Shown here: in pieces, positions 6,692-57,627 of the stretch
Numbering within the stretch: position 1 is the stretch's first letter
Layout of the letters: every line of letters starts with the position of its first letter
Assembly (NCBI RefSeq): GCF_963855985.1
Contig: NC_087092.1
Coordinates: 5,208,001 to 5,272,000 of the forward strand
Reading direction: 5' to 3'
Origin: Ostrinia nubilalis
Taxonomy: Eukaryota > Arthropoda > Insecta > Lepidoptera > Crambidae
Length of the DNA: 64,000 nucleotides
Notes under the pieces: generated by a model
What the model saw: the letters and a program-made list of their open reading frames with translations, nothing else
Database searches by the model: none
What the model was told of the DNA's origin: nothing
Program-made: the position numbers and the translations under genes

Positions 6692-8650
6692 ATCCCAAGT
6701 AGCATTTTACTCCATTTAAGAGTTCACATTTAGTTCCAATGTGTACTTAAAGCATTAGTACAGTTCACTCGTGATGTATAAGCTGTATTATTGCAATTAA
6801 TTACACCTATACCTGTCTAAGGGACTTATAGGAGTGTAGACTAGTGTAGAGTTATACTTTTATACGATTGTTGGTGTTATAATACTCTAACAACTATCCT
6901 TTAGTCAGCCGTCTGACTAAGAGCATTATAGGATGGTAGAGATACGGCAATCGCTGTTTAACGGCCTACTTGTACGATGTTATAGAGCTAGCATTTTAAT
7001 AGAACACACGTGGTCATTTATAAAGCCAAAGGCTGTTATGTTTACTTGTTTTAGACTGTTATACAGCTAGTAGCTGTAGTAGGACTTGTTTGTGATAATT
7101 AAATAACCTTTTTTACTATCTGTACAAAAGTGTTTCAATGGTTCGCATGTGCACTGTAGGCTGTTAAAAGGACTATATGTGTTGTCCATTAACATCAATA
7201 GCAGTTTATTTGTCCACAAGTACTACTCTTATTTGCTTTAAGCTGAACATGAATGTGAATGTGATATTCTATTACACTTTTCCCCAAGCCTGTTTTTAGT
7301 TGTTCATGGTGGTTCTGTACATGATGCAGAGGAAAATATTATGCCTGAACCTCAAAGTTCCCTTCAAAATATACAGATATCAGAGTGTGATGATTGCAGT
7401 TCTAGTGATAGTGAATACAATTTTGATTTGGACAATTATTTATTTAACCTTTCGCAAAAAAATAAGAACATGGGCTATTGAAAATTGTATTCCTCATTCC
7501 GCTTTGAATAAATTGTCAGGCATAATAAACGAATTTAAACCGGGAACACTACCGTCTGATGCTTTAGGTATTCATACTTGACTATTAGTAGCTGGGCTAG
7601 GCGATTTAACGGACATTAATAATTTTTATTGCGGATCTCTAAAATTTCAGTATTTGAAAGAATTAAAGATACACAATTGACCTGAACTAGGTACATCTTA
7701 AAGCTGTACATAAGTTCACATTAGAATAAATTTATAGACATTAGCGCTGTAGTGGTACAAATGTGGAACTTCATATAGATAACAGCATTCTAACAGAACA
7801 CATGTGAACCTAATATACGCTCACCGCATTAAATCGGAGTTATAACAGTTCACATAGCCGTATTTCATTTCCACCATTTTGTTCTACATAACCTAAAATA
7901 TTTACCAAATAAATCTCCAAAATTAATGCAGATTTATTACAAAATTCGCAGATAGAGCGATTGAGTTTTGGTTTCATGTTATAATTAATTACCGTAATAT
8001 AATTATAATGCCAATACTATATCAAAAACTGAAAATTGTAGATTTCCTCTCAGCCAGATTTAAATATTTTAAAATGAATATCGCGTTTTTACAGAGGCGC
8101 GTAAATATTTTAGCTGTAAATATGTATACATTTCACGATAAAGTTGCATTCCCAATGGCATTAACATTATTAAGTATTTAAAACCCGTGTTATTATTTGC
8201 ATAAATGATTATCCGCCCGAGTTGTTTCCCTCTTGGCACTCACGTACAAATACCAAACTAATATTAAAATGTGGAAATAATTTAGGACACACGTGAACTT
8301 TATGTAGCATTGGAGTACTTTTGTCGGACTTTATAACTTTGAAAGCTGTGCATTTAGCCACTTGTTACTCTTTATTACACTCACGTACGTTGTATGGTTC
8401 ACACTGCGTCCCATATAGTGCCGTAAGTCAGCCTTAAGTCCGATGTTACTACTTAAACTGCTATTATAATGCTATTATACTGCTAATGTACAGCCATAGT
8501 GAACTTAAAGCTGTCTAATTTGTGCCCAAACTGGTTCTATAAAAGCATTATAGCAAGCTATACAGCTCGTATACAGCTGACATACACAGCTTGTGGAGTA
8601 CATGTGAACGACTAGTGAACTCTTAAATGGAGTAAAATGTTACTTGGGAT
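6692..8650. mobile_element. DNA transposon with 35-bp inverted ends, decayed
   Basis: The outer ends are inverted copies. ATCCCAAGTAGCATTTTACT begins the left end, and the right end (to 8650) is its reverse complement with one mismatch over about 35 bp, continuing through a CTCCATTTAAGAGTTCAC-type phrase. The 1,959-bp interior is AT-rich, has many short subterminal motifs (AGCTGT/ACAGCT and GTGAAC/GTTCAC), and contains the broken coding fragment at 7300-7670. Many subterminal repeats are typical of transposase-binding regions in several cut-and-paste superfamilies. I could not fix a target-site duplication, so the superfamily is left open. It is probably inactive. Confidence 0.65.
7300..7670 (+). 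pseudogene. frameshifted transposon-encoded protein fragment
   Basis: Two overlapping frames give one plausible protein piece. The first frame (about 7300-7481) has an acidic, serine-rich section ending at a TGA. The second (about 7460-7581) carries RTWAIENCIPHSALNKL, followed by a short 'LPSDA' phrase and a stop. A third short frame near 7608-7668 may continue it. The WA..(N/C)I.H.AL..L pattern is one I associate with proteins encoded by insect DNA transposons. A polypyrimidine tract and TTTTTAG directly before 7300 look like a splice acceptor, so this may be an exon relic. Frameshifts and stops make it non-functional. The exact family is uncertain. Confidence 0.5.
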
Positions 8651-11600: not shown

Positions 11601-12509
11601 TAGTGATGTTAATGCAGGTTTTAGATTAGAATTAGATGTGATGAAATTCCTCTAAACGTATATTCTTATCATAAAATATGTTTATATTAATGTAAAAAGC
11701 TACTACTTACGGTAATAATTACTATTATAATAGTAACTAAAATAATAATCGACGAGTCAGGCACTACAGTTCCAAAGAATTAAAAAATCGTTTTAGTCAG
11801 ACTTTTTTTTTGTTTCGAAAAGTTATTGTTTGATTGGTAACTAATAATACTGACTCTAAATCAATAAAGAACACCTACGTAAAGGTCCCAAAGTAAAAGG
11901 AACTGTAAGTCCATGATTTGTGCGCGCCGCGACCCGCGTCGAACCCACGTGCGGTGTCGCACGCCCCAGGAGAGTCAAGTAGCCGATGGAAAAATGTATT
12001 TGTTACTTAAAAGGAAATGATACAAAAGAAAAAGCTATCTCAACAATAGTTCTTAAAAGTTACAACAAAATAATATGCGCTGCAATTAGTTTTCATTGAT
12101 TGATTGAATTTCAATATTTTTTTTAAATTCATGTTTTTTGTGAATAGATTTGTATCTTGTAAATAATATCAGAATTCAAGTTTTTATTTATTTTTCCTTT
12201 TCCAATAGGGACAATGGGACATACTTTTTATAAACTTTCAAAACCGGACTCTACTTAAATAAATAAATAAAGTCCTTTATTGCTTCCACAACTTACTTAG
12301 CTAGTACATAATGTTGATTGATTGACATAGTATAAGAACGCAATTGTATTGCAATTACTTGGACCTTGTATTGCAAAATGACTACTATCTTGGTAACTCA
12401 ATTAATGTATTTTTGTGCCTTGAAATTATGAGCATGTACGAGTATAGACTAGCTAGAGCATTTCTGTGTAATGTAACATTCTTACTAATGGTACAGGTAA
12501 AATGTACGG
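8651..12509. other. non-coding stretch, possible regulatory block
   Basis: No gene recognised. It contains a 46-bp tandem duplication (8994-9085), a long T homopolymer near 9621-9641, and a 13-bp inverted repeat (CTGCCCACTGTGC at about 9725 and its complement at about 9794). A reverse-oriented AAATAAATAAATAAAG tail lies near 12258. Between about 10050 and 11560 the DNA alternates CpG-containing GC-rich patches with homopurine and AT-rich words and has no long frame, which is how conserved regulatory DNA often looks. I cannot test conservation. Confidence 0.35.
8994..9085 (+). repeat. 46-bp tandem duplication, two copies
   Basis: Two adjacent copies begin TTTGTGG(T)(A/C)ATCGACTC and end TCTAAATAAAA. 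They differ at one base. The copies are head to tail with no spacer, indicating a recent local duplication. Confidence 0.85.
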
Positions 12510-12683
12510 TGCAGTCCTGTTGTCCCCCCTGCTTGGCCCCCCTGGGGGAGCCAACAGGATTTCGAAATCCTGTTGTCCCCCCTGGCTAGGGGAGACAACA
12601 GGACTAGATTTTTAATCAATGATTTGAGGACTGTTGTCCCCCCTGGCAAACATTGGGTATTTAGAAGCCATATATTTTTGTAA
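12510..12683 (+). repeat. left inverted arm of fold-back element
   Basis: Begins TGCAGTCCTGTTGTCCCCCC and ends TATATTTTTGTAA. It pairs base for base with 13757-13930 except at 12606, 12613 and about 12656. Confidence 0.85.
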
Positions 12684-13756
12684 TATATATTATTTAAAAG
12701 CAAGTAAAGCAGATTTTGGAATAGTCAGAAATATTACCGGTACCAACAACTTATATTTTTTTCGTTAAGAAAATGTTAATTATTATTTAACAAACGTTTA
12801 GGTATTCACTCAGTTTGGGAATTTGGCATTCAGTCAAGTACTTTAGTATTTTACAATATGTTATAAAAATACAGGGCTTTTAAATAACAACTGTCTACAG
12901 CATTTTTGCGCACGGGTTATGCATAGCTTATTTTTATTGCTTTATGACCTAGAATTAAGAATAACAACAAAAAATTGTTCTGAATTTGCTTTTATGAGTA
13001 AAAAATAGAAAAATTCATATCAATGAATGTATGAAACATGAACATAGAGATGATTCAATTTGTTGCCAAATATATTTTTTTCTTTCTTTCTTTCATTCTT
13101 TCTAACTATTAAAACATACCAAACATCCATTTAAGATTCATTCTCACAAGAGAAAATTTAAAATAGAATCCAAATATTTATTAAAAATGAAAAGTTCTAA
13201 TTTCCTGTCACGTTCCATAGAAGATTTTTCGCATAAAAATCTAACCCTATCATGCTTTCAGTATACTGGCCTTGGTAACGTCGTCTCTCAAATCTCACTA
13301 TATTTTGATGAAAGCGTGCCCCTTGTTCTTGCGAATAAGCCCCCATAATTATTTATAAATATATCCCAATGAGAATGGGACGTGCATCTTTAGAGACATT
13401 CTACTATGAAGATGGAAAATTCAAATCGCTATAACTTCTTAAAAAGCAAATATTTTCGATTTGTAATCGCACTTTTTTATATAAATTTGCTTATATAATC
13501 AGAATATAATAAGTAAAATCCATGCGCAAAAAAAATTTTTTTTTTGTTGACCGGTGTAATGTTTGCCAGGGGGGACAACAGTCCTTAAATCATTGATTAA
13601 AAATCCAGTCCGAGATTTTGGAATAGTCAGAAATATTACCGGTACCAACAACTTATATTTTTTCGTTAACAAAATGTTAATTATTATTTGACATACGTTA
13701 AGGTATTTAGTTTGGCAATATGGCATTTAGTCAGGTACTCCAGAACTTCTTAAATG

Positions 13757-13930
13757 TTACAAAAATATATGGCTTCTAAATACTCAATGTTTGCCAGGGG
13801 GGACAACAGTCCTCAAATCATTGATTGAAAATCAAGTCCTGTTGTCTCCCCTAGCCAGGGGGGACAACAGGATTTCGAAATCCTGTTGGCTCCCCCAGGG
13901 GGGCCAAGCAGGGGGGACAACAGGACTGCA
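13757..13930 (-). repeat. right inverted arm of fold-back element
   Basis: Reverse complement of the left arm with three mismatches. It ends GGGGGGACAACAGGACTGCA at 13930. Confidence 0.85.
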
Positions 13931-16900
13931 TCAAACGTTTGGTTCATGAAACGTTTCACTTAAACATTTTCATAGAGCGGCTCGTTGCTTTGTTACAAGT
14001 AAATCCTCTTTTAAATTGTATCTATAAGCTGACTTCATTTATATTAGCTAAAAGCCAAGGGAACATCCCTTAGTTTGGTGTTTCACGGTGCCGAACTTAC
14101 TGAATACGGCATGAATCACCCGCCACGCTCCGATGCGCGTGCGTTCCGCGAACGCGGAGTCTTCAATACTTTTCCGGTGACGGTTTTAGTGATCCGTACG
14201 AAAATCCGGACAATAAAATCTGGGGGAAATAAGGTTTGCTTGTGAAGGGTGAATTGTAAAGATTGTGAAACTGGATATCTTTTGTGCTCTTGGTTAAATG
14301 TAATTTATCTAGCAATTTACTGATATTTGCTCTTTATAAAAACAACAAAATAATAACAAGTACAAATGGTAAAAGGCAAACAATACGATGTATTCATAGC
14401 ATTTTGTGATGAAGTAGTTGTTAATTTTGTTTCATGCAAATAAAATTAAAAAGAAACAGCCACTAAAATGTACGGAATTCTTATGTACGAATGACGACAC
14501 GTGGAGCAGTATTTTACTTTATCACTAACAGGAATACGTATGATTTTCCTACAAATGTGTGCAACTGTATATTAAATTCCGGATATATTTCTGTAAAGCT
14601 ATCTCTATCACTAATGCGACTGGCGACGTCTTTTCGAGCTTTGTTATGATTATGACTCGAACGCTGCACGGGCAGTGATTCCGATGCACCAATAGTTCGC
14701 TTTAGCGTTCAAAGTGCATTAGTGGCTAGCCATTGGAAAACGGAGATAGTTTCCAAGCGTTTTAGCTTATTTACTATTCAATATTTGTGTTTACCCAAAA
14801 GCTATTCAAAATTTTATGTACTTATACTTCACACTAATGACCTCTTCTATTAATCATCCCACGCTATCCCAAACAAATGAAGCTCGTTTTAGACAAAATA
14901 CCGCCTGAACTTCACACAAAAACGAAATAGAATGCTCAGGATGATTAAGAATTCGCTCACGTGCCGCGTAACAAAAAGTAACAACTAAATATTTCGGAGA
15001 CGACCGATCGAGCCCGGGTGCGGATAACAAAAAGAGGTCCGACCCACCCACACCCGCGCAGATATGATAATCCCAAGTATGTAAAATAGTGAAATTTAAG
15101 GTCTCTCCATGTGAAGAATTGTGCTCGTTCGGCAGGCAAATTATTCAAATTCAAGCCCTTTTATTCGAGGCACACACGGGTCGCCGCGCGCGCCTCTCAC
15201 TCATTTGTATTTTAATAAAATTCCCGAACTAGCCCTATCTAAACACGGCTCGCCATTATAACATCGCACGAAACAACGCCTAAAATTAATAGATTGTTAT
15301 TACAACGTTTTCAGTCCGAGTATTTTCACAAGCCATCCATCAATCGGTTCTCGATGAATCAATTTGAATACATTTTGCCGAGCGAACATTCGTCGAAGTT
15401 TACATAAAGTTGGCTATAAATACCTACCGAGCGCAAACAAAAAACAGAGCTGGTTCGATTACAATGACTCCCCCGATTCGTGGATTCGATTGTGGCTCGT
15501 GGATGACGTGGTATCGGAATCTGCAGGGGATCCGGCGTCCGATTTGCATGGCGTCCAAAAGTTCACAATCGCATTTTCCTCATCAGCCCGCGGGAACGTC
15601 ATCCATCCATCTGCCGTCTTCCTGTGTCCCTACCTCTTTTTGCCGGTCCAGCCGCCGGCGCTGTTCGCGATACATAAATTTTCACGATCGGTCATCCCTT
15701 AAAAACAAGTTTAGCTCTTTATCCGTGGGAGTAAGTTAAAGAATGGCACGACCGTACGTTACCCTCCGATTCGTTACGTATTCAAATTATTTCGCCGTCC
15801 TGTTTTTAGGTCCGTTTGTGTTGCTTTGTGTACCTACGCATTTCGTTCTTTTCAGAAACTCGGCCATTGAATTCGATTGATTAATGTCGTTTCAATATTT
15901 AGATTTAAGCCTTTTGTTTCGGTTTTGGGGACGATTTTATTTTGGAATGGCTGTTCATTCTATAAAGCTAATTATGCTATATCCCCGGCTAGCCTCCAGG
16001 AACAATATCCTATTTAGGTGCCCGGCGAAGTTGGCCTATGCGTAATTAATTGGCACGTCATGCGGGGGCCCAAGGAGCCCTAGCGTCGTAGCACAATGAG
16101 AAACGCCAGATTACCTAGCTCTATTATTAAAAATTCTAATCTTCACTGACTTCTAGAACAAGTTTATAAATCTCCGGCAACTAGAGCAATGTGACCAGGA
16201 TATCGGTGACTGTAAAATACTCAACTATTCGTACATACTTCTTTCTACATCTTAAACGTATCTGAAAATCTCTTAAAGAACACTCACTGTTTCGTGATAT
16301 TTGCAGGAATTTTATGTCGATTCAAACTCTGTCATGTTTAAGCTGAACAGCTAGCTTTTCTCCACTTTTCTCTCGGAATATATGAATCAGAATCAAGGTT
16401 CTCAGTCAGCCTAGTTTGATATGGATTGTCTGCTATCCTTGTTCTGTGGCTGACGGCCGCAGACTACCGGCTAGGAGCGACTTGCGACGCCGCGTCAGGC
16501 CGCGTGTGCTCCTCGGGGATAATTCAATAATGAGCGGCTTAAATCCATTCTGCGACCACGTACCTACCTAAAACTATTTAGTGGCTGTATTGTGTGTGAA
16601 TTTTGGCATCTATTATGCAAAAAGAAAATACTACTTCAAAAATCCCTTTAGAAGGTAGGTATTATTTGGAACAGACTTGTGATAAAACTCCGAAAATAAC
16701 GCCAAAATGTAATGTGTCATTTTTCATATTGATCTTAAATAATATTCTAATTGAAGACAAGCTGTTGTGCTTAAAATATAACAAACTTAAAGTGGTCTGG
16801 TGAAGTAAAGCTTACTTGAACCACGATCTAGTAAAGGTCGCGGAGAGCCATATGTAGTGTGGTAGGTCTGCCTTCACTACATCTTCCAGTCCGTGCTCGC

Positions 16901-19072: not shown

Positions 19073-19393
19073 ATCCCATCAAAACCAATACTTGTCAAAA
19101 AAACCAAGTCTCGCAACTCAGTTGTTCTACGGTAAAAAGTTGTGAGATCCATGTAATACCAAGTCCAGGCCAGGAAATCTTTAACGTTTTACATAAATAT
19201 ATTGACTTGGCCATCGCACTAAATAATTTAATTTACACGTGTTTTCATGCGATGGCCAAGTCAATATATTTATGTAAAACGTTAAAGATTTCCTGGCCTG
19301 GACTTGGTATTACATGGATCTCACAACTTTTTACCGTAGAACAACTGAGTTGCGAGACTTGGTTTTTTTGACAAGTATTGTTTTTGATGGGAT
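19073..19393. repeat. near-perfect 146-bp inverted repeat, 29-base loop
   Basis: The left arm 19073-19218 and right arm 19248-19393 are reverse complements with one mismatch (19085 against 19381). The loop is 19219-19247. The inner ends read GGCCATCGCA and TGCGATGGCC. The sequence right of the structure continues as repeat-like DNA with GTGAGTCA tandem units, so the right arm probably belongs to a dispersed repeat and the left arm is an inverted duplicate of part of it. A plus-strand frame (19054-19371) runs through both arms and is a by-product. A transcript would form a long double-stranded hairpin. Near identity of the arms means the inversion is young or kept uniform by gene conversion. 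Confidence 0.9.
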
Positions 19394-19466
19394 CTCATTT
19401 CTTTTTGTATTTTGTAGACAGCAGTTATGTATCTAGAAAACTGGACCGAAATTGAAAAAATTTACT

Positions 19467-19890
19467 CGACTTGGCGGTTGCACTACCGTGCCCCCAAATA
19501 TTTTAGTTTTTCCTTGATTCATACACCAAACACTACTTATATTCCAAATTTGAAGCTTCTAGGTCTGCTAGAAGTGCCTTAGAGTTTTGATGATCGGTGA
19601 GTCAGTGAGTCAGTGAGTCAGTGAGTCAGTGAGTCAGTCAGTGAGTGACAAAATTAAGTAACTTTGACCCGTTATAATTCTTAAACTACTAGTTCAAATT
19701 GAATGAAATTTTAAATATACCGTGTCTTTACAATGCCTGCATAGCTAATGAAAATTCAGCCTTCTAGTTTTATCCACAACGAAGTTACAGGCGGTCGAAA
19801 ATGGCCTGAATTGCTTCGAGAAAAGGATGGTACGGCCGTGCCGCTTTTTTGCTCGACTTGGTGGGGGCACTGCCGTGCCCCCAGATAATA
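19467..19890 (+). repeat. dispersed repeat bounded by related ends, with GTGAGTCA array
   Basis: The phrase CTCGACTTGG(C/T)GG followed by GCAC, CCGTGCCCCCA occurs at about 19468-19498 and again at 19854-19883. The second copy contains a perfect stem GGGGGCAC/GTGCCCCC. Between them is an 8-bp tandem array of GTGAGTCA (about six units, 19597-19649). The repeated ends suggest one dispersed element or two related ends. No coding sequence is seen. Confidence 0.5.
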
Positions 19891-32048: not shown

Positions 32049-34274
32049 TCCCATGTCAATAAAAACCTGTATGTATATTCTTCACTAATCCCTGTTCCGC
32101 ACATCCTTACCACCAAGGGCTGCCCTCTCATTATTTACGAAGGGCCGATAGCTGAAGTGTGGGACAGGGCACGTACGGCCTCTAACGAGACGCTTTGTGA
32201 CCATCTTCACTGCGGTCAACGGCTGTTGATTTTTTTAATGGACAAATTATATTTGGCCAGTATCCCCAAGAGTGCATTGTGGCCTTTTAAAGTCAGGGGA
32301 CACGCGAGAGTTGCATGCGAACTGTTGAAATGGCACGAAGTGCTTTTTATTTGTAGTCACGTGTTTGGAACTCGAATAGGGCTGGGGAAGCTATGAGCCT
32401 CACCTTTTTAAAGTGGATTTATAGTTATTTATTTGTAGACAGGGGTCCTTTACTGCAGGCAAGTGACGTCTTAGTACAATTAAAGCTAGCCTTAACTCTA
32501 TATTCTAAAATCAATTTCCTATATTCAAAAAATACTAGTTTAAGCTACCAATTCATTTACATTAAATAATATACGTACCTACTTCTAACTACGTAACATT
32601 CATAATATGAATAAAGCTAGCCAATCTCACTTGCAAGAAGTTTTGGATTTTAATCACAAACTGCGCTCCTTCGCAAAATTCTGTAATATAGTAATCCCAG
32701 ATGAATCACAAATAACTAGCGTAACCATTTTGCAAACTAATAATTCCATCTCCGAAATCCCGGCGCAAACATAAAATCACATTCCGACCTTTCCACGCCG
32801 CGACTATAAAACCGAGTAGACACTGCTAAAAGCGTTTTCCTCCGATTTGCTCTACAATAGCTCATTTGTTATAACCTGATAGCGTAGCGGTATTACGCCA
32901 AACAAATTGAGTCGAGCCTTCGCCACCTCAGACTAATGTAATTCCGGAGTGCGCCCAAGAACAGATATTTAGAGTGGATTGTTTTCGACAGAGCGTAATG
33001 AAACTCTGATGCCGGGCCGAAATCAGTTTCGGAGGTGAGCGCGCCGCAGGGGAGCGGCTACATTGTAATAAGACGGAATAACCTAAAATAAACCGCGTAC
33101 GCACAAGATGGACACGGGCGGGGGCCACTGCGGCCCCTTACTGCTTAATTTGCCTACCGTAATTACTGTCCTCTCGGGTTGGGGAAAGACCCGGGGGCTC
33201 GACCCAGCCGTCTTCAGGTTATATTGCTCGTGCGGGCGCGTGTGTACTTCGCAAATACTATACCCCCAGTCGTTAAGTATGAATACGAATACGGGTGTGG
33301 ACAAAATGTATTAGCTTAGGCTGAGATTCGGACCGTGTTTGCTCAGCGATGATAGATTTATAGTAATTGTGTTATTAACGTTATGGGATAAGGGTTTTAC
33401 GGACTTAAGTAATGAAGGCTTTTACCTAATGCCGGGATTTATAGTGAGTTTGCACACGTGGTGCACTGAGTAATCAAGTTAGTTTCGGGCTGCCGTAAAC
33501 GGAGTTCGTTTATTAGTAGGTATAACCTGGACTGAGGTATACGTATTAGTTTAAGGCCGGGTAGCAGAGAAAATGGCGAAAATGAGGTTTTCATTTTTCA
33601 TTTTTGAGGTACTAAACAGTAAAATTAAAGGCTAAGATTTTTATTGGGCATAGTTGAGGATATTTTCTAGGGCTATTAACGGATAGAAACACGATTTGAT
33701 GAAGTTGACTCGATAGAATAAATTCCCAAAGTTACCTCTATTCGTTTTCTATTTATGGTTTTATTTTTAAAATAAGCGATTTGAGATTCCAAATCTTTTA
33801 CTAAACTAAAGTTCAGAAATAACTTGAGGGCTTTTAACGGATGAATTTTTTATATTGCGTCTTATTTAGTTACTATGTTAAAAAATGTGGAAAAAATCGT
33901 CCATAACGGCTTGGACAATCTCAATCAGTCGCGCGGTGGCGCTTACGGAGGACGGACGCGTGTCAGTTTTTTGGCCGTGACAGTTCGCGATTTGTCAATA
34001 TTTTTGACAATGATGACTTTGATGAGTCACAGTATAATAATATCAGTGTTACTGGAGAAAGCTTAAATTTTTGATAATTAAGAATTATCAATTTTGTCTA
34101 CCTATTGAAATTTAAATCGTTCGCATCCTTTTAAACGAAGACTCTACTCATGATACATAGTAAATTCCTCAAATATGAGACAAAACCAATGAGTTAAAAT
34201 TACATTTTCATATTACCTACATACAATCGTCTTACACTCTTTAGAAGAGCACACTGACACAAATAAATAATAAA

Positions 34275-34912
34275 AAATACTGTCTAAGGTCTGTAGCTAA
34301 AGGTCTAAGCTGTAAGATAGAAGAATCTTCTAGCCAAAAAGATGGCAGATGCAACAGATGTCAACGGATTTAAAACTGGAGTTCATATGACTCCTTGTAG
34401 AATTGAGTCTCTAGAGCGTCCCTTCCTCCACCATGCGTAAGAATGTTTCAAAAATACTGTCTAAGGTCTGTAGCTAAAGGTCTAAGCTGCAAGATAGAAG
34501 ATCTTCTAGCCAAAAAGATGGCAGATGCAGCAAATGTCAACGGATTTAAAACTGGAGTTCATGTGACTCCTTGTAGACTTGAGTGTCTAGAGCGTCCCTT
34601 CCTCCACCATGCGTAAGAATTTTCATAAAAATACTGTCTAAGGTCTGTAGCTAAAGGTCTACGCTGCAAGATGGAAGAATCTTCTAACCGAAAAGATGGC
34701 AGATGCAGCAGATGTCAACGGATTTAAAACTGGAGTTGATGTGACTCCTTGTAGACTTGAGTGTCTAGAGCGTCCCTTCCTCCACCATGCGTAAGAATTT
34801 TCACAAAAATACTGTCTAAGGTCTGTAGCTAAAGGTCTAAGCCGTAAGATAGAAGAATCTTTTAGCCAAAAACATGCCAGATGCAGCATATATGAACGGA
34901 TTTAAGACTGGA
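34275..34912 (+). repeat. 177-bp satellite, about 3.6 copies
   Basis: Units start AAATACTGTCTAAGGTCTGT at 34275, 34452, 34629 and 34807, giving periods of 177, 177 and 178 bp. The fourth unit is cut short near 34912. Units differ at scattered positions (for example AGATAGAAGAATCTTC against AGATAGAAGATCTTC). A minus-strand frame at 34659-34889 is a by-product. Period and head-to-tail order suggest a small satellite array or the tandem core of a transposon. Confidence 0.9.
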
Positions 34913-44800: not shown

Positions 44801-47464
44801 GGTTCCAAGCAATACAGTTTACTGCTTATTCAGTATTTATACGATCGGGGGGCCGCTACTCGTCTCAGACGGCCGGTGTAAGGAAAATTTGTAAAATTTG
44901 CAACAATTAGCAGCGAACCCTATTAACTCGTATATCACTCATTTATGGCGGAGTTGGATTCGATTTTGTTTTTCTTATGTAGGCATTAGCATGTTGATTT
45001 ATTTGGCAGGTTTAAATAATTTGTTACTTCTATTTAGCTTAATTATGATGATGATTCACGTACTACATTTCGTCAGATGAAATGATGTGTGATAATTTAT
45101 TTTATCTAGAGTAACAAATATTAGGCAATTCAAGTTTTTGGAGGTAATAAAAATTTAATTCGAATGATTGAAGTAATACGAAAGCAAGATTCACATGTCT
45201 ATAAATCGGTTTAATAATGTAGCAAGCACATCAAAAACAAATTGAAATTTAAGACTGGAGCTATCAACTAGAGCATAATAGAGTCGACGCAATGAACGTG
45301 AAATAATATTAAAAAGCGGAAAGTTAGATGGGGTATAAAGGGTTGAGCGCACCGTGCGTTGTTTACTACCCGGCTCACTTATCCAATCGCGCGTAATGTA
45401 TTTATGATTATTGTCAAAGTAAAGGAACTGACGTACGTCCTATAATGATTCTTACGTCTATCTCATTTAGACACAAAATAGCTCCATCCAACCTGTACTT
45501 TCGTAGAGCGGATGCTACGAAGGTCTACGACGTAGCTTCGTAGCAAATATTTTCGACTAATGACAGTTGACGAAAAACAGCCACATTGTGCCAAAGGAAT
45601 AAGGTTTTGGAACTTTAGTTACATATTTTTATAGAAAAATATGATATTACCATGAGTTTAGTGTAGGTACTCAATAAAATATTTTATGTGGAAATACATA
45701 AACTAAAATAACATTTTGGAAATGTTGTTTGTACTCGTTTATGAAATATTATTACGAAAATTTGGTTTTATGTCACAAAAAAAGTAATAAACTTGCCTGG
45801 GGACTGAAATTACATGTCGATATTAAATTGGGATTAGAAAAGATCGGACCGATCGGCTTACGCCTCGATTCGTCTCGGCTATACACTTTAGCGGTGTACC
45901 TCCATCGGAATACATATTTCGCCATTATTCCCGAATACTTAAGCCGTCCAACCTTACATCCGAGCCAGAACATCGGCATAATCCGCCGGTGGTTCGTTCG
46001 TAGCGTTCTTAATCCATCACGTAACGGCGTCGAGAAATCGTGTTACATCAACGAAAAATGTATTATAGGAGGGGTACCCCCCGATCGGACAAACTTTGCT
46101 AATACCACCCCCCACATAATCGGAGCCTTTACGAGGGAGGCCTCCTCGTATTTATAGCGAACGTGGCTGTTGCTAGTTAATTATGAGACGTAAAAACTCT
46201 TGATGGCTCCCGATGGCTGCTTGTTTGCGTATCTAAATATGTAATATGTTGGCTATGAGTTCTTTGAGATATTTAATATTCCTCTTAAAGGTATACAAAG
46301 ATCTTGATTTCAGAAAATGAGCTTGTCTTTTACTAAGAAAGGAGCTACAAGTTACGAGTATAATACAGTTCATTCACGTCGTAAGTTATTTGTGAATTAT
46401 TGAACATTTTTAATAATATCGTAAGGTTTGACTTTTGACTTTTCTTCTTATTACATGTTAACCTTAGAAGTTCAAGGTTGTGATTATGAGATTTAAAGAT
46501 TATTTTACATTCCCTTTCTCAAACGATCTTTTGTACGGCCTCTTACAGCCTAATAACCACATATCTACAGATCTGTAGTAGTACGTTGTATAATTTATAA
46601 AACGTTTGTGAGTTAAGTAACCAATCTAAAAGTAGTACGGTATTATGATTATAGCATAACTGATACAAAAATCTAACTGTCCTACCCAACTCATTAATAT
46701 CTAAGAAAATTTTCAATGAAAGATGTGGTTCAAGATCTTTAACTATTCTCTTTTGAAACTAAAGAGATAAGTTTATTCATATTACAAGAGACACAAGTCG
46801 CGCTTATTTATAGCACAACAGCTGTTTCAATTATTCTATACTTAGCATTAAACCTCAAGACTGCTCATAGTGCTCTACTCGCCACTTCAACAACAATAAG
46901 ACATGTCACGCCAAGTTGCTGAACAAAGCCGCAACTCGTCCGCCACTCATACAAGCACACCTATTGCATTGTCGAAATCACTTATACAGCCATGATGCCG
47001 CGACACACGGCGCTTGTGGTTGAGCAACAAATTATAGCTCTAGATAGAGTCGCCGCAGGATTCACTATGTCAGTGGAAAATACTAGAAATCATAATTATT
47101 CGAAAAAGAGCGAGATTATTTTCATTTCATGAGTTGTGAACTCTTTTGAAATTGAAAATTTATATGACGTGAGCAAAAGTTTAACGTTGAGACCCGTCTC
47201 AATTTTTAAAAATATTTCGTTATATTTAACATGCATGATACATGATAATTGACAATTGGCTACAAATTAATTTGTGGTTAGTAACTAACAAACAACAGTG
47301 TCAGTTATGTAGAGCTTTAGATTGAATTATGGTGAAGGAGACAGTTATTTAGAGATCTCTATAAGATGCAATAGTCTTTTTCTCATTCATCGTTGACTTT
47401 GAATTCCTCTCTTTTATACCTGTCATGTAGTCATTTAAAAACCTGTCAGATAGTCTATCGTACA

Positions 47465-47638
47465 CTGAAAAAAATGTTTGGTTACTGCTTACACAACAAA
47501 AGTGACCACCGAACTAAGTGTCAACTATAACCAAACTACAGAATTATTTGTTTAATTTACAGAACATTTTGTTCCTCATAACCAAAGTGTTCGGTGGTCA
47601 CTTTTGTTGTGTAAACAGTAACCAAACATTTTTTTCAG
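47465..47638. mobile_element. 174-bp MITE with 50-bp inverted ends
   Basis: Arms 47465-47514 (CTGAAAAAAATGTTTGGTTA...) and 47589-47638 (...CCAAACATTTTTTTCAG) are reverse complements over 50 bp with one mismatch at 47488. The 74-base centre adds partial pairing (ATAACCAAA in both orientations). There is no coding capacity. The size and long perfect ends are those of a young MITE. No target duplication could be fixed. Confidence 0.75.
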
Positions 47639-50600
47639 AGTAGCGTTTATTTTTCGTAGTTTTCACTTCCCGCTTGTCATCCGCACCACCCGTGTGTGCT
47701 ACATGTTAGCATGCAGCATTATTGGCTCGCGGGCAGCGTCTCGCTCGTCTCGCCGGTCGCTAACACATTCTCACCTGGGGCCCGGACTTGCTAAGACTTC
47801 GCAACTCTGACGGCCTCGATGCGGGCTCGAATTACCGAGACCTCACTCGATGCCTTCCGAATACTAACCACGGGGAACTACATTCACTTGTTTCTCATCG
47901 TTATTAACGTAAACAGGCCCCCAATTAAAATCGCAGCTTATACGCTCTCGTTTCAGTTTAAAGAGCTAAAAAGTTTTGTAATGTCAACATTGAAATTAAC
48001 TTGCATTTAAATCGACTACCTTCATTAAAATAAGGTCTGTTCTCACAGTTTTAATCATCTAACATTTTAATGGAAAAACTATTCATAAAATAGTGAAATT
48101 TAAATGGTGTGAGAATAACGTCGCGTTTGACAATAAGCTGAGAGAAACACGAACAAAGCTTTTCCCTAATAATAAACACCTTGTTTTATCAATAATGAAA
48201 ATTGTAAAATACTCTTTCAATCCCAGCATCAAAGGAACAAAACTTTCCTCCAGTTTATTTATCGAAATTAAAAATACAACGGCCCAAAATTAATTATCAC
48301 TCAGAACCGAAGCCGAGTCAGCCTACACGAAATTTTCACGGCTCAATTGGTACAGTTTATGGCGAAATTAATTACTGGCTAGAGAGGATCGACTATAATA
48401 GTTTCAGAAATTATTATTGTGGACCCTCCAGGCGGGAGATTGTCCGAACAAGAAAATTACTGAGCGTAAACCGGGGTGTGAATTTTGAAATCAAAGAGAT
48501 TGGGACTTGTTCGGGTCTATTGTGCAGCCATCATTTACATGGGACGGCACCTATACACAATTCGCTTTTAGGCTTTTGATTGGGCTAAAAGCGGTTGGCT
48601 TCGTAACTACGGTGATGGGAATTTGCGTATTCATATAAAGTTGTTTCGTACTTCTGTGTATTAATGCGATGTAGGGTGAACGTGTATCGTTACTTGCTTG
48701 GCTTCACTTTGCAGAAATATGGAACACTATTTATAGAAATAGTGTTCTATATTTCTACAATGTGAACGCTATACGTTAATAACGTCTTACGTTATTAATT
48801 TTTCATCACAAATCTCTTTTGAGTAAAATGTACTGATGTATGTTGTGTAGTTTTCTCTATACACAATAAATTACCAAAATCAGTGTAAATTAAAGATTTT
48901 TTTCTTTAACATTATCTTAGTGATATTCAACAATACAACTAGGCACTATTTATATTTCGCAGAATGTGCAAGCCAGACATCCTCGCAGATACGTCTGGGA
49001 GTCAAACCCGGCACCGCCGAAGCCACGATAATGCGATATATGGGTGCCAGGGGAGAGTACAGCTGAGATTCCAAAACACAAGATTTATGGTTTGCCTTCA
49101 AGAATATTAATCAAGCCGTCTACAATTTGAAATATGTGGGGAAATATCGAAGCAGTTTGAGGAAAAATCTGTCGTCGATATGGCAAATGAGATGATTTTG
49201 TGGTAAATTGATCCAATTTACCAGGATTTGGGGAACAATTGATTGTTGAGTTGGGTGATTCTCGACCTTTTGAGTATGTAGAATTAAATGAGTAAGAATA
49301 AGATGGCATTTCAAGACCAGGCAAGTGTGATTTGTATTTTGACAGATTAGTTTGTGACAAATGTGATTTTATTAATAAAAGCTAGCTTCTGCTACTGACT
49401 CTGCGTGCATAGAGTTCAATCGACCGATTGTACGTCAATTATAAGCTGTTAGAAATTTAATATTTGTTTGTGTAGAGTACCTGTACCTATACGTCATATA
49501 AACGTAAATAATACCTAACGCGTGGCAAGCAGTTCAGCAAGGTTTAGCAAAATTAAGCTAGGTAAGTTATAATTGCTCTAGGTCAGAGTAGCTTAACGGC
49601 AACTGATTAAATTCTAGTATTTACTATTATTGGCCAAAAATTATTCTTCTTTAGGTAGGTCGTCGATGATACATGAAGGTTGTATGCGATGTATTTAAGT
49701 AACGCTCTCCTTAAAAATATACGAAAGTTAAGTGATGTTTCATAAGATATAAATACAAACAAGTAACTCTGTCTGTCTGGTTACTTCAATTTTGATGAAT
49801 TTTGTAATATGCACAGATAGAAGAAACTTTTACGCTTTTTGTCGCCAAAAGTAAATTATGTTGTTATTAACAAATTAGGTAGGTACGTACAAAGGAATCA
49901 ACAATTTCTAAAGGTAAGCGATATAAAATTCATAAATTATTATGTATGTAAAAATCGGGCGCACGGGTCATACTGCAAGTACAAATTATAATTTTGGTAT
50001 AAATTCTCGTCTCTGAATAAAAAATACCGTCCAAAAACACAAAGGGAAGACAAAATCGAATCTCAGTCAAAAACTGTGGGTTCGTAAACCAACAAGGAAT
50101 CTCCATAACGCGAAAGAATTAAGTATGAAATATGCGCTCCTCAGGCGCACTGATTTATAGCGAGGCGATCTGGCTTAAATATTGTTCCCTGCGCGTTAAA
50201 CACTGTTTAAGGGATGATGTTGTAAGGAACAAGATGTTGTTTTCCATTACATAAACATGGTTTGGAAGAAAAAGTAAGGTTTCGAAAAATTGTGCAATGA
50301 CTGAAAAATTATTGAAATATTTTGAAAATAGCGCATATTAGGGTCATTCGTTACAAACTCTATTATTCGTTTTTGCATTCACAGTAAAAAATATGATTTT
50401 ATCACTTGAAACAAGTGACTGACCCAGCTTAAAAAACTGACGCAAATGTAGGTTCGTAAAAAGTAGTACTCATACATACCACTATAAAAAGATATGTCTA
50501 GTAAAGATGAGCTCAGTATTATGTCGACTTCATTTGTTTATTTCGACTAAAACAAACATAAAATTATACAAACCCCTTAAGTCATTAAACTGGACATTAT

Positions 50601-53504: not shown

Positions 53505-53667
53505 AACACCCAGACTCATAACGCTGGTATTGAGTAAACAACAATAGGGTCAGAAACTGCATCGTCGAAAATAATTGCCGGCGCGACGCAACGTGTTGGC
53601 GTCCATTACCGGTGGGAAGGGAAGAATATTACTTGCGAAGCAAGGAAGGGACGATCAGGAAGACAGC

Positions 53668-56600
53668 ATGGCGATGGAGGACAATACTAAAATGCCTGGC
53701 TTACACATTAGGCTGGAAGGTGCATCCAATTGGAATATTTGGAAATTTCAATCCGCCATATTGTTACGAAGTCAAGACTTAATGGAAGTTGTCGAAGGAA
53801 CTTGTGTGAAACCAGAGAATGCTGATGGCAAGGCAGCATGGGAAAGGAAGGATGCAAAAGCCCAAACATGGCTAGTAACAAGAATGTCAGAAAATGCAAT
53901 GATGCATATAATAACCTGTACTACGTCTGCTGAAATGTGGAGAAAATTGGCCAGTGTTTACGAGCAGAAGTCTGAGACGAGTATTCACATCATTCAACAA
54001 CGTTTCTTTCAATATGCTTACGAAGAGGGAATCGAGATGTCTACATTCTTATCTAAAATAGAAGAATTGAAGAACCAGTTGAAACAGATGGGAGAAGATA
54101 TGTCAGAGAGGTTCGTCATAACAAAAGTGCTCATGTCGCTACCAGAGTGTTACAAGCACTTTGTATCTGCATGGGAGTCGGCACCGGACGATAAACAGAC
54201 GTATGATAATCTCGTGGCCAGACTGATGATAGAAGAGGAGCGGCTGAAAGAGAGAGGCGAGGTGCAGCAAGCATCATCATCGGCATTTGTTATGAAGAAA
54301 GTAAACAAGAAAAATATCAAGTGTTTTAAGTGTAACAAGATGGGACATTTTCAAAGTGAATGTCATAGCAACGTAAACAAACGAAACGGAAATAATTCGG
54401 ATAGTGACAGTAAACAAGTTAAAAAGTGTTACTACTGCAAAAAGGTGGGACATCTAAAAAGTGAGTGTTGGTTCAAAAAGAATAAGGACAAAGACGGTAA
54501 TTGTGTTAATGCGTTCGTCATGGTGAAGTCTAGTGGACAGTTTCAACAATCGTGTTGGCTAGTGGACACTGGGGCAAGTCAACATATGTGTCGAGATCGT
54601 AGTTTATTTACAACATATTCGCCGTTGTCAAATAAATCTGTTGTAATCGGAAATGGCAGTGTCATTAGTGCGCATGGTTGCGGGCAGGTGGCGCTCGAAG
54701 TCTATGATGGCTGCAAATGGGTAAACACGACCATAGACAACGTTTTGTATGTGCCGGAATTAAAAACAAACTTATTCTCTGTCAACTCAGTGACAGTTAG
54801 AGGTTATGTCATGACTGTAAATAAGAACATTTGCAAACTTTACAAAGGGAATAAAGTGTGCGCGGTGGCAAATTGTAACGGCGGCTTATATTACATGAAT
54901 GTGCGCTACAAATTTGAAGAACAAGTAAATGTAACATGTCTGAAGGAGTGGCATGAAAAACTCGCACATCAAAACGTCAATCATTGCAAAACAGTGCTGA
55001 AAAATAATAACATCTCTGTAAATGACGACTCGAGTATGACGTGTGAGAGCTGCCTGGAAGGCAAAATACATCGTCTGCCTTTCGGTGCGAGCGAAACGAA
55101 GACAACCAAGCCTTGTGAACTCATACACGCTGATGTGTGCGGCCCCATGGAGGAGCTGTCAGTCGGGGGCTCCAAATACTTCTTGCTATTGAAGGACGAC
55201 TACACAAAGTATCGCGTGGTTTATTTCATCAAAAGGAAGGACGAAGTTAAAAGTTGCGTTGAGGACTTCGTGAATAAATCACAGAATGTTACTGGATACA
55301 AAGTAAAAACATTCAGGAGCGATAATGGTTTGGAATTTGTCAACAAAGAGATGAAGGAGCTGTTCCGGAAGCATGGCATTACACATCAAACAACCGTTGC
55401 TTACACCCCTGAGCAGAACGGCAAGGCAGAACGAGAGAACCGGACTTTGGTTGAAGCGGCAAGGACAATGCTGTGTGCTAAAGGATTACCTAAAAAGCTG
55501 TGGGCAGAGGCTATACATACTGCAGCATATGTGTTGAATAGAACCAGCAAGAGCACCGTGATTGGAAAGACCCCGTACGAGATATGGACAAACAAACACT
55601 TTGACATAACCGAGTTGAAAACTTTTGGTACCCCTGTTGTTGCTCATATTCCTAAAGAAAGGAGAAGAAAGTGGGACTCAAAAGGACAGAAAGGAATGAT
55701 GGTTGGTTATGGAGAAGATGTCAAAGGTTATAGAATATTTTTCCCGGAGAAGAACAGCGTTGAAGTAAAGAGAGATGTGGTATTTGTAGAAAAGGAGAAA
55801 GAAAAGGTAGTTATGCTGGAATATGATACTAACACCACGGAGAAGGTCAGTGAAAGTGAGGAAAAACCCAAAGAAAATGAAGAGAAACCTAATGAAGGGG
55901 AGAGACACTCCAACGGCAGTAATGAACAAGTGAGTGAGAGGGAAGAGTTGAGCAAGGACATGGAGGATGACTCTATGGAAAGTGATGGTAGTTTATATAC
56001 ACCGGGCTCGAGTGATGAGGGATCGAGTGATGGAGAAGCTGATGCTACATTACCACGCCAGAGAAGTACCCGCGTGAGGAAGCAGACTTCATTCTACACC
56101 TGTCATCATGCCTATGTGGAAGGAAATGAACCTAGAACCTACAAAGAAGCAATGCAAAGCAAAGATGCTGATAAATGGCAAGAAGCTGTCGAGAAAGAGC
56201 TGGAAACCCTGAAAGAAAATAACACCTGGGAACTGTGTGAGAAACCTGAAAAGTCTGTAAGTAGTAAATGGGTATTTAAAATCAAAACTGCAAATGATGT
56301 AATTCAGTACAAAGCAAGGTTAGTAGCAAGGGGTTTTGAACAAAATGATTTGATTGATATGTGTGACATCTATGCACCTGTTGCAAAATTGGCAACTTTT
56401 AGGTTATTTGTCTCGGTAGCTACAAAATTAAATCTTCCTATTTTTCAAATGGATGTCACAGGTGCCTTTTTATATGGAAATATTGATGAAACTGTGTATT
56501 TAGAATTACCAGAAGGGGCATATAGTGGGGATAATAAATATTATGTCAAATTAAATAAATCTTTATATGGGTTGAAGAAATCTCCAAAGTATTGGAATGA

Positions 56601-57627
56601 AAAATTTAATTCTGTAATATTGAAACAAGGTTTTATAAGATCTCCTAATGATTCTTGCTTGTATACAAAATGTAATGGTAATTACAGAACTTATGTGTTA
56701 TTGTATGTAGACGACTTGTTATTTTTTGGTAATAATGATTCAGAATTAAGTGAACTTAAATCAGCTTTGAACAAAGAATTTAAAATGAAGGATTTAGGGT
56801 TGGTGTCAACTTTTTTGGGTATACATGTAAAACAAGATTTAGAGAAGGGAATAACTGAATTAAATCAAACAAAATATCTTAAAAATGTTTTAGAAAAGTT
56901 TAAAATGCAAAATTGTAAGGAAATGTGTACTCCAATGGATGTAAATTTTAATGCTAAAATATTAGATGGAAATAATGAATCTTATGATGAAAATATTGAG
57001 AAAGAGTGTAGGAAAATAATAGGTTGTTTGTCTTATGCTGTATCAGGAACAAGACCTGATATTTGTGTAGCTTTGTCAATTTTAAGTAGATATCAAAATA
57101 AAGCAAACAGTGCCCTGTTATCAGCACTTAAAAGAGTATTGAGGTATATAAAACATACTATTGATTATAAACTAGTGTACAAGTGTAATGATGACATGTT
57201 GGTGGGCTACTGTGATGCAAATTGGGGGGGAGATTTGCAGGATAGGAAATCCACAACAGGCTATTGTTTTATGTTTGCAAATTGCTTAATATCATGGTGT
57301 TCGAAAAAGCAAACCTCTGTGAGCTTATCTTCTACAGAGTCAGAGTATATTGCAATAAGTATGGCTGCATGTGAAGCCTGCTGGCTAGTAAGTTTATTAA
57401 AGGATTTCAATATTAATAATACATGTCCTGTGAATATTTATAGTGACAATCAGAGTGCCATTATGGTTGCTAATACTGATAGCATCAAACGTCTGAAACA
57501 CATAGACATTCGTTTTCATTTTATTAAGGATATAATTAAGAAAGGAAAATTGTTATTAAAGTTTATTAAAACAGAAGATCAGACAGCTGATATGTTTACA
57601 AAGGCATTAAATAGAACCTTGTTATAG
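53668..57627 (+). CDS. copia-type gag-pol polyprotein, 1319 aa
   Basis: Encodes the polyprotein that makes the particle, processes itself, copies RNA to DNA and integrates it. The first in-frame ATG is at 53668, with A at -3 and G at +4. The frame is open further upstream to 53575 only through a non-ATG start. Domains by residue: gag capsid-like region about 10-200; two CCHC zinc knuckles starting at C219 (CFKCNKMGHFQSEC) and C254 (CYYCKKVGHLKSEC); aspartic protease DTGA with D300; integrase zinc finger H429, H434, C459, C462; integrase core D489, D552, E588 (35 residues between the last two); acidic linker; reverse transcriptase with YVDD (D1015, D1016); RNase H acidic residues D1183, E1224, D1260. 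All expected catalytic residues are present and there is no frameshift. The stop codon is supplied by the DNA transposon at 57625, removing 11 codons of the older frame. Base composition drops sharply in G+C after about 56220. No separate gag stop or frameshift site is seen, so gag excess would need splicing or processing, as in Drosophila copia. Confidence 0.95.
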   Translation: MAMEDNTKMPGLHIRLEGASNWNIWKFQSAILLRSQDLMEVVEGTCVKPENADGKAAWERKDAKAQTWLVTRMSENAMMHIITCTTSAEMWRKLASVYEQKSETSIHIIQQRFFQYAYEEGIEMSTFLSKIEELKNQLKQMGEDMSERFVITKVLMSLPECYKHFVSAWESAPDDKQTYDNLVARLMIEEERLKERGEVQQASSSAFVMKKVNKKNIKCFKCNKMGHFQSECHSNVNKRNGNNSDSDSKQVKKCYYCKKVGHLKSECWFKKNKDKDGNCVNAFVMVKSSGQFQQSCWLVDTGASQHMCRDRSLFTTYSPLSNKSVVIGNGSVISAHGCGQVALEVYDGCKWVNTTIDNVLYVPELKTNLFSVNSVTVRGYVMTVNKNICKLYKGNKVCAVANCNGGLYYMNVRYKFEEQVNVTCLKEWHEKLAHQNVNHCKTVLKNNNISVNDDSSMTCESCLEGKIHRLPFGASETKTTKPCELIHADVCGPMEELSVGGSKYFLLLKDDYTKYRVVYFIKRKDEVKSCVEDFVNKSQNVTGYKVKTFRSDNGLEFVNKEMKELFRKHGITHQTTVAYTPEQNGKAERENRTLVEAARTMLCAKGLPKKLWAEAIHTAAYVLNRTSKSTVIGKTPYEIWTNKHFDITELKTFGTPVVAHIPKERRRKWDSKGQKGMMVGYGEDVKGYRIFFPEKNSVEVKRDVVFVEKEKEKVVMLEYDTNTTEKVSESEEKPKENEEKPNEGERHSNGSNEQVSEREELSKDMEDDSMESDGSLYTPGSSDEGSSDGEADATLPRQRSTRVRKQTSFYTCHHAYVEGNEPRTYKEAMQSKDADKWQEAVEKELETLKENNTWELCEKPEKSVSSKWVFKIKTANDVIQYKARLVARGFEQNDLIDMCDIYAPVAKLATFRLFVSVATKLNLPIFQMDVTGAFLYGNIDETVYLELPEGAYSGDNKYYVKLNKSLYGLKKSPKYWNEKFNSVILKQGFIRSPNDSCLYTKCNGNYRTYVLLYVDDLLFFGNNDSELSELKSALNKEFKMKDLGLVSTFLGIHVKQDLEKGITELNQTKYLKNVLEKFKMQNCKEMCTPMDVNFNAKILDGNNESYDENIEKECRKIIGCLSYAVSGTRPDICVALSILSRYQNKANSALLSALKRVLRYIKHTIDYKLVYKCNDDMLVGYCDANWGGDLQDRKSTTGYCFMFANCLISWCSKKQTSVSLSSTESEYIAISMAACEACWLVSLLKDFNINNTCPVNIYSDNQSAIMVANTDSIKRLKHIDIRFHFIKDIIKKGKLLLKFIKTEDQTADMFTKALNRTLL

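Follow-up and report, generated by a model that had tools for sequence, protein, structure and literature searches.

A long palindrome at one end of a multicopy, probably Helitron-like transposon family in Ostrinia nubilalis

Long TIRs are carried by foldback elements and MITEs, and the terminal palindrome of parvoviruses has a loop that occurs in two orientations. Replitron and Crypton are examples of HUH or tyrosine-recombinase classes, and DINE/HINE elements combine an internal tandem unit with a microsatellite, in which they resemble the element described here. For the Helitrons, a preference for A|T without duplication is given as the canonical target (PMC4778049, PMC5148889); Helraiser goes between A and T and otherwise mainly uses TT, AC or AA (PMC4778049).

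Our element lies in a 64,000-nt stretch of DNA (the window; C5:5208001-5272000) and shares features with several of these systems. Like the canonical Helitrons (Helitron1 and the insect Hel-2, Csup_Hel1 and silkworm families), it has an A|T target, no target-site duplication (TSD), a 5'-TC start, a short hairpin near one end and non-coding copies, and Hel-2 likewise has an internal tetranucleotide microsatellite (PMC4344730, PMC3789558, PMC6544945). Unlike them, it lacks a 3'-terminal CTRR whichever way it is read (the ends are CAGA or GGGA). Its 9-bp terminal hairpin sits 2 nt from the element end, versus 11 nt in Helraiser (PMC4778049), and at the other end stands a 320-bp palindrome, whereas the palindrome described for Helitrons measures 16-20 bp (PMC6544945). 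Hairpins at both termini are also found in Helitron2/Helentron, one end of which begins with T or TC and has an almost terminal hairpin, as here (PMC3627910, PMC5148889). However, the target of those elements is TTTT|T/C or within TT (PMC3627910, PMC5148889), one hairpin is far longer in our element, and the asymmetric terminal inverted repeat described for Helitron2, with its 5' copy 0-2 bp from the end, is missing, there being only a 12/14 subterminal match. Foldback elements and long-TIR MITEs likewise have a long, near-perfect palindrome around a short loop, but here it occurs at one end only, without a consistent TSD and without TIRs at both ends. Parvovirus terminal hairpins have the two loop orientations in common with the element, but the loop is only rarely inverted here, and no linked virus-like gene was found.

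The palindrome and its place in the element

The near-perfect hairpin of 146 pairs with a 29-nt loop reported in the initial annotation was recovered in an arm-to-arm comparison (Table 1), with a single mismatch at 19085, where the left arm has C and the right arm implies A; the repeat search returned the identical arm pair as 151-nt arms at 98%. Folded as RNA, the 321 nt reach -258.8 kcal/mol, compared with a mean of -62.75 (sd 4.39) for 100 dinucleotide shuffles, and chance is excluded as the origin of the hairpin because of this difference (z = -44.66), in agreement with the earlier judgment. An assembly accident is unlikely, since the same structure was found at many loci with differing flanks. 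Within the window, no Rfam family was found at gathering thresholds, and no tRNA in a search with bacterial settings.

Several other repeats were seen in the window. A copia-type polyprotein with gag, zinc knuckle, integrase and reverse transcriptase domains is encoded by one uninterrupted frame of 1350 aa at 53575-57627 (+), and a 178-bp unit is tandemly repeated 3.6 times (93% matches) at 34272-34912. Inverted repeats comprise a 190-nt pair, perhaps a long-TIR element (12500-12689 and 13751-13940; 95% complementary, 1061 nt apart), a second, smaller hairpin with 54-nt arms (47461-47514 and 47589-47642; 96% complementary, 74 nt between) and a TIR-like 51-nt pair (6692-6742 and 8600-8650; 86% complementary, 1857 nt apart).

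Table 1. Features of the element copy in the window.
Feature	Position	Strand	Basis
Base -1 of insertion site, A; assigned to target by A|T rule	19073	+	A in 26/27 complete copies
Whole non-coding element copy, 812 bp, TCCCATC...CCCCCAGA	19074-19885	+	flank switch in 27 copies; nested empty site
Distal (outer) arm of terminal palindrome	19073-19218	+	repeat search, arm pairing, fold
29-nt loop	19219-19247	+	arm pairing, genome-wide loop pattern, loop orientation
Proximal arm; outer end abuts body	19248-19393	+	arm pairing; junction at 1311 genome sites
106-bp unit, TCTCATTTC...CCCCCAAA	19393-19498	+	alignment of copies
(GTGAGTCA)n microsatellite	19597-19648	+	repeat search; length varies among copies
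TTGCTCGACTTGGT adjoining short hairpin	19849-19862	+	12/14 complementary to arm 19103-19116
Short terminal hairpin, TGGGGGCAC-TGCC-GTGCCCCCA	19862-19883	+	fold z = -3.19
Base +1 of insertion site, T	19886	+	T in 25/27 complete copies

The right arm had been thought to run on into a dispersed repeat, and copies at other loci do share the body that follows it. On the plus strand of the window, the element reads palindrome, 106-bp unit (one or two), body with the variable microsatellite, and short terminal hairpin, its two ends being the TCCCATC palindrome and CCGTGCCCCCAGA. Family members measure about 0.8-0.9 kb, with a palindrome terminus of 320-321 bp, and no open reading frame of at least 110 aa is listed inside the window's copy. 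The 106-bp unit is single in seven of 25 copies, including that of the window, and present as two tandem units in 18. It terminates in a degenerate version of the short hairpin that ends the element. A|T is also found at the internal borders, between palindrome and unit in 26/27 complete copies and at the unit borders in 44/45. From these borders and the degenerate hairpin we infer what looks like modular assembly, with the parts of the element joined end to end. The terminal hairpin itself was found in the aligned copies except L015, the end of which is truncated. Together with the arm, TTGCTCGACTTGGT forms a weak subterminal inverted repeat, 29 and 23 nt from the ends, a match computed on copy L032 with the positions transferred to the window.

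Some individual copies deviate in structure. One family member (L083, C1:14338300-14339000) has a longer interior without a long open frame, and at C1:714855-716363 (L036) two element copies of like orientation are separated by about 26 bp. The palindrome at C1:679608-682029 (L034/L035) is apparently split by an insert of about 2 kb with near-identical, inverted ends, and a hairpin arm of a copy on C22 contains an insert of about 550 bp (L013, 4287-4836) with a CTTT-type repeat end and TAAT at both borders.

The genome searched comprises 495 Mb in 52 contigs. A similarity search of its DNA, in which only the best candidates were scored, identified at least five further loci, among them a complete hairpin on C9 that is 99% identical to that of the window. 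With at most two mismatches, a 24-mer from the outer arm end matched 2800 genome sites (1407 + 1393), compared with 0 for the reversed control, and 30-mers matched 1311 sites for the junction of arm and body, 1546 for the loop and 1269 for the middle of the body. The opposite terminus (33-mer) was found at 1857 sites with at most three mismatches, a looser pattern for which the count is not comparable with those of the 30-mers. Seven copies can be aligned with the element, and for five of these the alignment covers nearly the full length. The exact arm and body patterns had no matches in viral contigs.

Arm pairing was scored on the first 100 listed arm sites, all of which are exact matches on C1. 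Of these sites, 74 belong to inverted pairs, 37 in number, and the other 26 are single. The spacing is 296-298 in 31 of the pairs (297 in the window) and 289-304 in three others, while the last three are short, with spacings of 151, 175 and 229. In the exact-match list, the identical body is joined to exactly one side in 36 of the 37 pairs; it is absent from the list for the last pair, the own sequence of which (L074) has the junction within a few mismatches. Seventeen of the 26 unpaired sites have the body and nine have no listed body; among those with full sequence are palindromes interrupted by an insert (L034/L035) and truncated ones (L018, L022, L025).

The palindrome is a built-in terminal module of a mobile family with more than 1000 copies. 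The initial annotation had interpreted it as part of a transposable element duplicated in inverted orientation at this locus. Membership in a transposable element stands, but a duplication of one element part here is ruled out by the recurrence of arm, junction and loop throughout the genome, as seen in the 2800 arm ends and 1311 junctions. The annotation itself had named, as a refutation, the case that every copy shares the inverted structure in the form of an ordinary TIR. The findings come near to this case: the inverted arrangement does recur, with the body on one side in nearly all pairs scored. It is not an ordinary TIR, however, because one terminus holds the whole palindrome and the opposite terminus is different.

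A related suggestion was that the locus gives rise to endogenous siRNAs, as a hairpin gene formed by local inverted duplication. The near-perfect 146-bp stem with its short loop has the shape of an hpRNA precursor, and the Drosophila hpRNA/endo-siRNA loci (PMC10317233, PMC10292708) resemble it in the shape of the possible transcript. Unlike those loci, it belongs to a dispersed mobile element, with the palindrome at the same element position across the genome and the full hairpin, almost unchanged, on another contig. We therefore give hardly any credence to a local hairpin gene. A putative Dicer-2/siRNA role for a read-through transcript, which would contain the 146-bp duplex, is physically plausible.

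Insertion site and transposon class

The flanks of 27 complete copies have A before the element in 26 cases and T after it in 25. Matches of at least 3 nt that resemble target duplications occur in 13 of the 27, compared with about 8.5 in shuffled pairings, and they have no common length: eight span 3 nt, four span 4 nt, and the remaining one, in the simple ATG-rich flanks of L066, spans 7 nt. No consistent TSD was found among the 27 copies. One copy on C1 (L019) is nested within another family member, at an A|A target. When its flanks are joined, 300/300 bases match uninterrupted copies, gap-free and at up to 99.7%, and the insertion therefore added only TCCC...CAGA, or the same segment shifted by one base. 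“AT” as a 2-bp TSD was rejected for this copy, whose uninterrupted target lacks the “T” that stands at the palindrome end. The A|A target suggests that the usual flanking T belongs to the target, and the border A could partly be element sequence. Insertion of the family is thus between A and T and leaves no target duplication, and the element starts with TC in both reading directions, TCCC one way and TCTG the other.

We consider it probable that this is a young, non-coding and non-autonomous Helitron-like rolling-circle family of more than 1000 copies, with a palindrome at one end and a short hairpin at the other. It is Helitron-like, not a proven Helitron. No published description of such a family was found at the level of titles and abstracts, which does not prove that there is none.

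The Helitron_like_N profile has 62 matches in the genome, many within open frames of more than 1000 aa. Three RepHel loci on C18, C15 and C5 (L077-L082) were compared with the family over partly covered flanks, where the best shared match has an E value of 0.018 over 18 or 15 bases. Over the parts covered, these flanks share nothing convincing with the family. The missing CTRR and the lack of a tie to RepHel at these partly covered loci would also fit a non-autonomous element belonging to a different HUH or tyrosine-recombinase class. Yet A|T without duplication is the canonical Helitron target (PMC4778049, PMC5148889), and we regard another class as quite improbable.

Two observations were made on the profile matches themselves. 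Twenty-three of the 62 are on C31, many with near-identical scores and long open frames, and this contig is perhaps a sex or repeat-rich chromosome. Downstream of the RepHel match on C15 (L079, C15:3849000-3851000), weak mirrored matches to the element were seen at about 170-400 versus 1450-1690, and this region may carry a long inverted repeat of its own.

Could the arms instead be the long TIRs of an ordinary DDE foldback element or MITE that inserted beside another repeat? Both arms start with the same outward sequence, pieces without the body occur (L016, 8273-8499; L022), and the nine unpaired arm sites without a listed body, among the first 100 listed, could be of this kind. However, the same body is joined to exactly one side in all pairs scored but one, the complete copies have no consistent TSD and the nested empty site is free of gaps. 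The one-sided body and the absence of a consistent TSD disfavor a DDE foldback element, and we find it very unlikely.

Age of the copies and exchange between the arms

When 25 copies are compared with the majority sequence, the arms differ at 23/7272 positions and the body at 66/8831. The family is young, as judged from these body differences and from arms only about 0.3% from the consensus. The lower divergence of the arms is not taken as proof of conversion, as the copies were chosen by exact matches to arms and ends and the body alignment crosses the microsatellite. The hairpin alignment had 31 rows, which were reduced to 27 by dropping L012-, L019+_319 and L074- (other strand) and leaving out L014 with its deleted arm. 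Three of these 27 copies have an identical change at mirror positions of the two arms, one change being shared by L026 and L063 and another present in L064.

Loop orientation was scored on C1, with 100 listed exact junctions and 93 of 100 listed exact loops, the other seven being on C2. A listed loop was found at 90-175 nt from 69 of the junctions, in the usual orientation in 65 and inverted in four as scored from coordinates, not letters; the remaining 31 have none listed. Three inverted loops are of full size with an offset of 156, which equals a scripted inversion of the majority length class (the window's class gives 157), and the fourth, with an offset of 96, is shortened. No loop is inverted among the 27 hairpins seen in full, a set that partly overlaps with the 69 junctions. 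Three copies (L014, L015 and L016) have a central deletion of one arm and retain both outer ends.

The mirrored substitutions and inverted loops, although from few copies, suggest that the arms appear to exchange sequence. Taken together, conversion, inversion and deletion indicate that the arms interact, as expected of a cruciform-prone palindrome. One hypothesis is that the palindrome works as a terminal hairpin of the parvovirus ITR type, at which replication is primed or resolved, with flip/flop of the loop and one arm templating the other. The loop does occur in both orientations, arm changes are mirrored in a few copies, and the palindrome is at the very end in all 27 complete copies. 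On the other hand, inversion affects about 6%, versus the roughly equal mix expected if the loop flipped in each cycle, centrally deleted copies exist (the three above and the three short pairs), and rare recombination between the arms accounts for the same data. We consider this hypothesis unlikely. The same doubt applies to an active part of the palindrome in transposition, in which a hairpin-tipped single-stranded DNA intermediate would provide a priming or stop structure, with arm copying and occasional loop inversion. If true, this would be a eukaryotic rolling-circle transposon with parvovirus-like flip/flop termini.

Proposed mechanism and significance

For the Helitron-like family, we propose that the source element already carried the palindrome, which was copied along with the element, as its recurrence shows. 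Insertion takes place between A and T and does not duplicate the target; most likely, the element is moved in trans by an HUH transposase of the RepHel type. The mirrored changes and occasional loop inversions indicate indirectly that information may pass between the arms, the simplest route being conversion or crossover between them through a cruciform or hairpin, for which the enzyme and the timing are a matter of inference. Double-stranded RNA may be a by-product of read-through transcription.

A striking hairpin at a single locus can be an ordinary trait of a family, and caution is needed in its interpretation. A near-perfect palindrome with a short spacer is usually considered to be unstable, and this one has nevertheless multiplied to more than 1000 young copies as the end of a transposon. 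The many copies in one genome represent a natural experiment in palindrome deletion, loop inversion and conversion from arm to arm, and they also bear on the role of the terminal hairpin in rolling-circle transposons.
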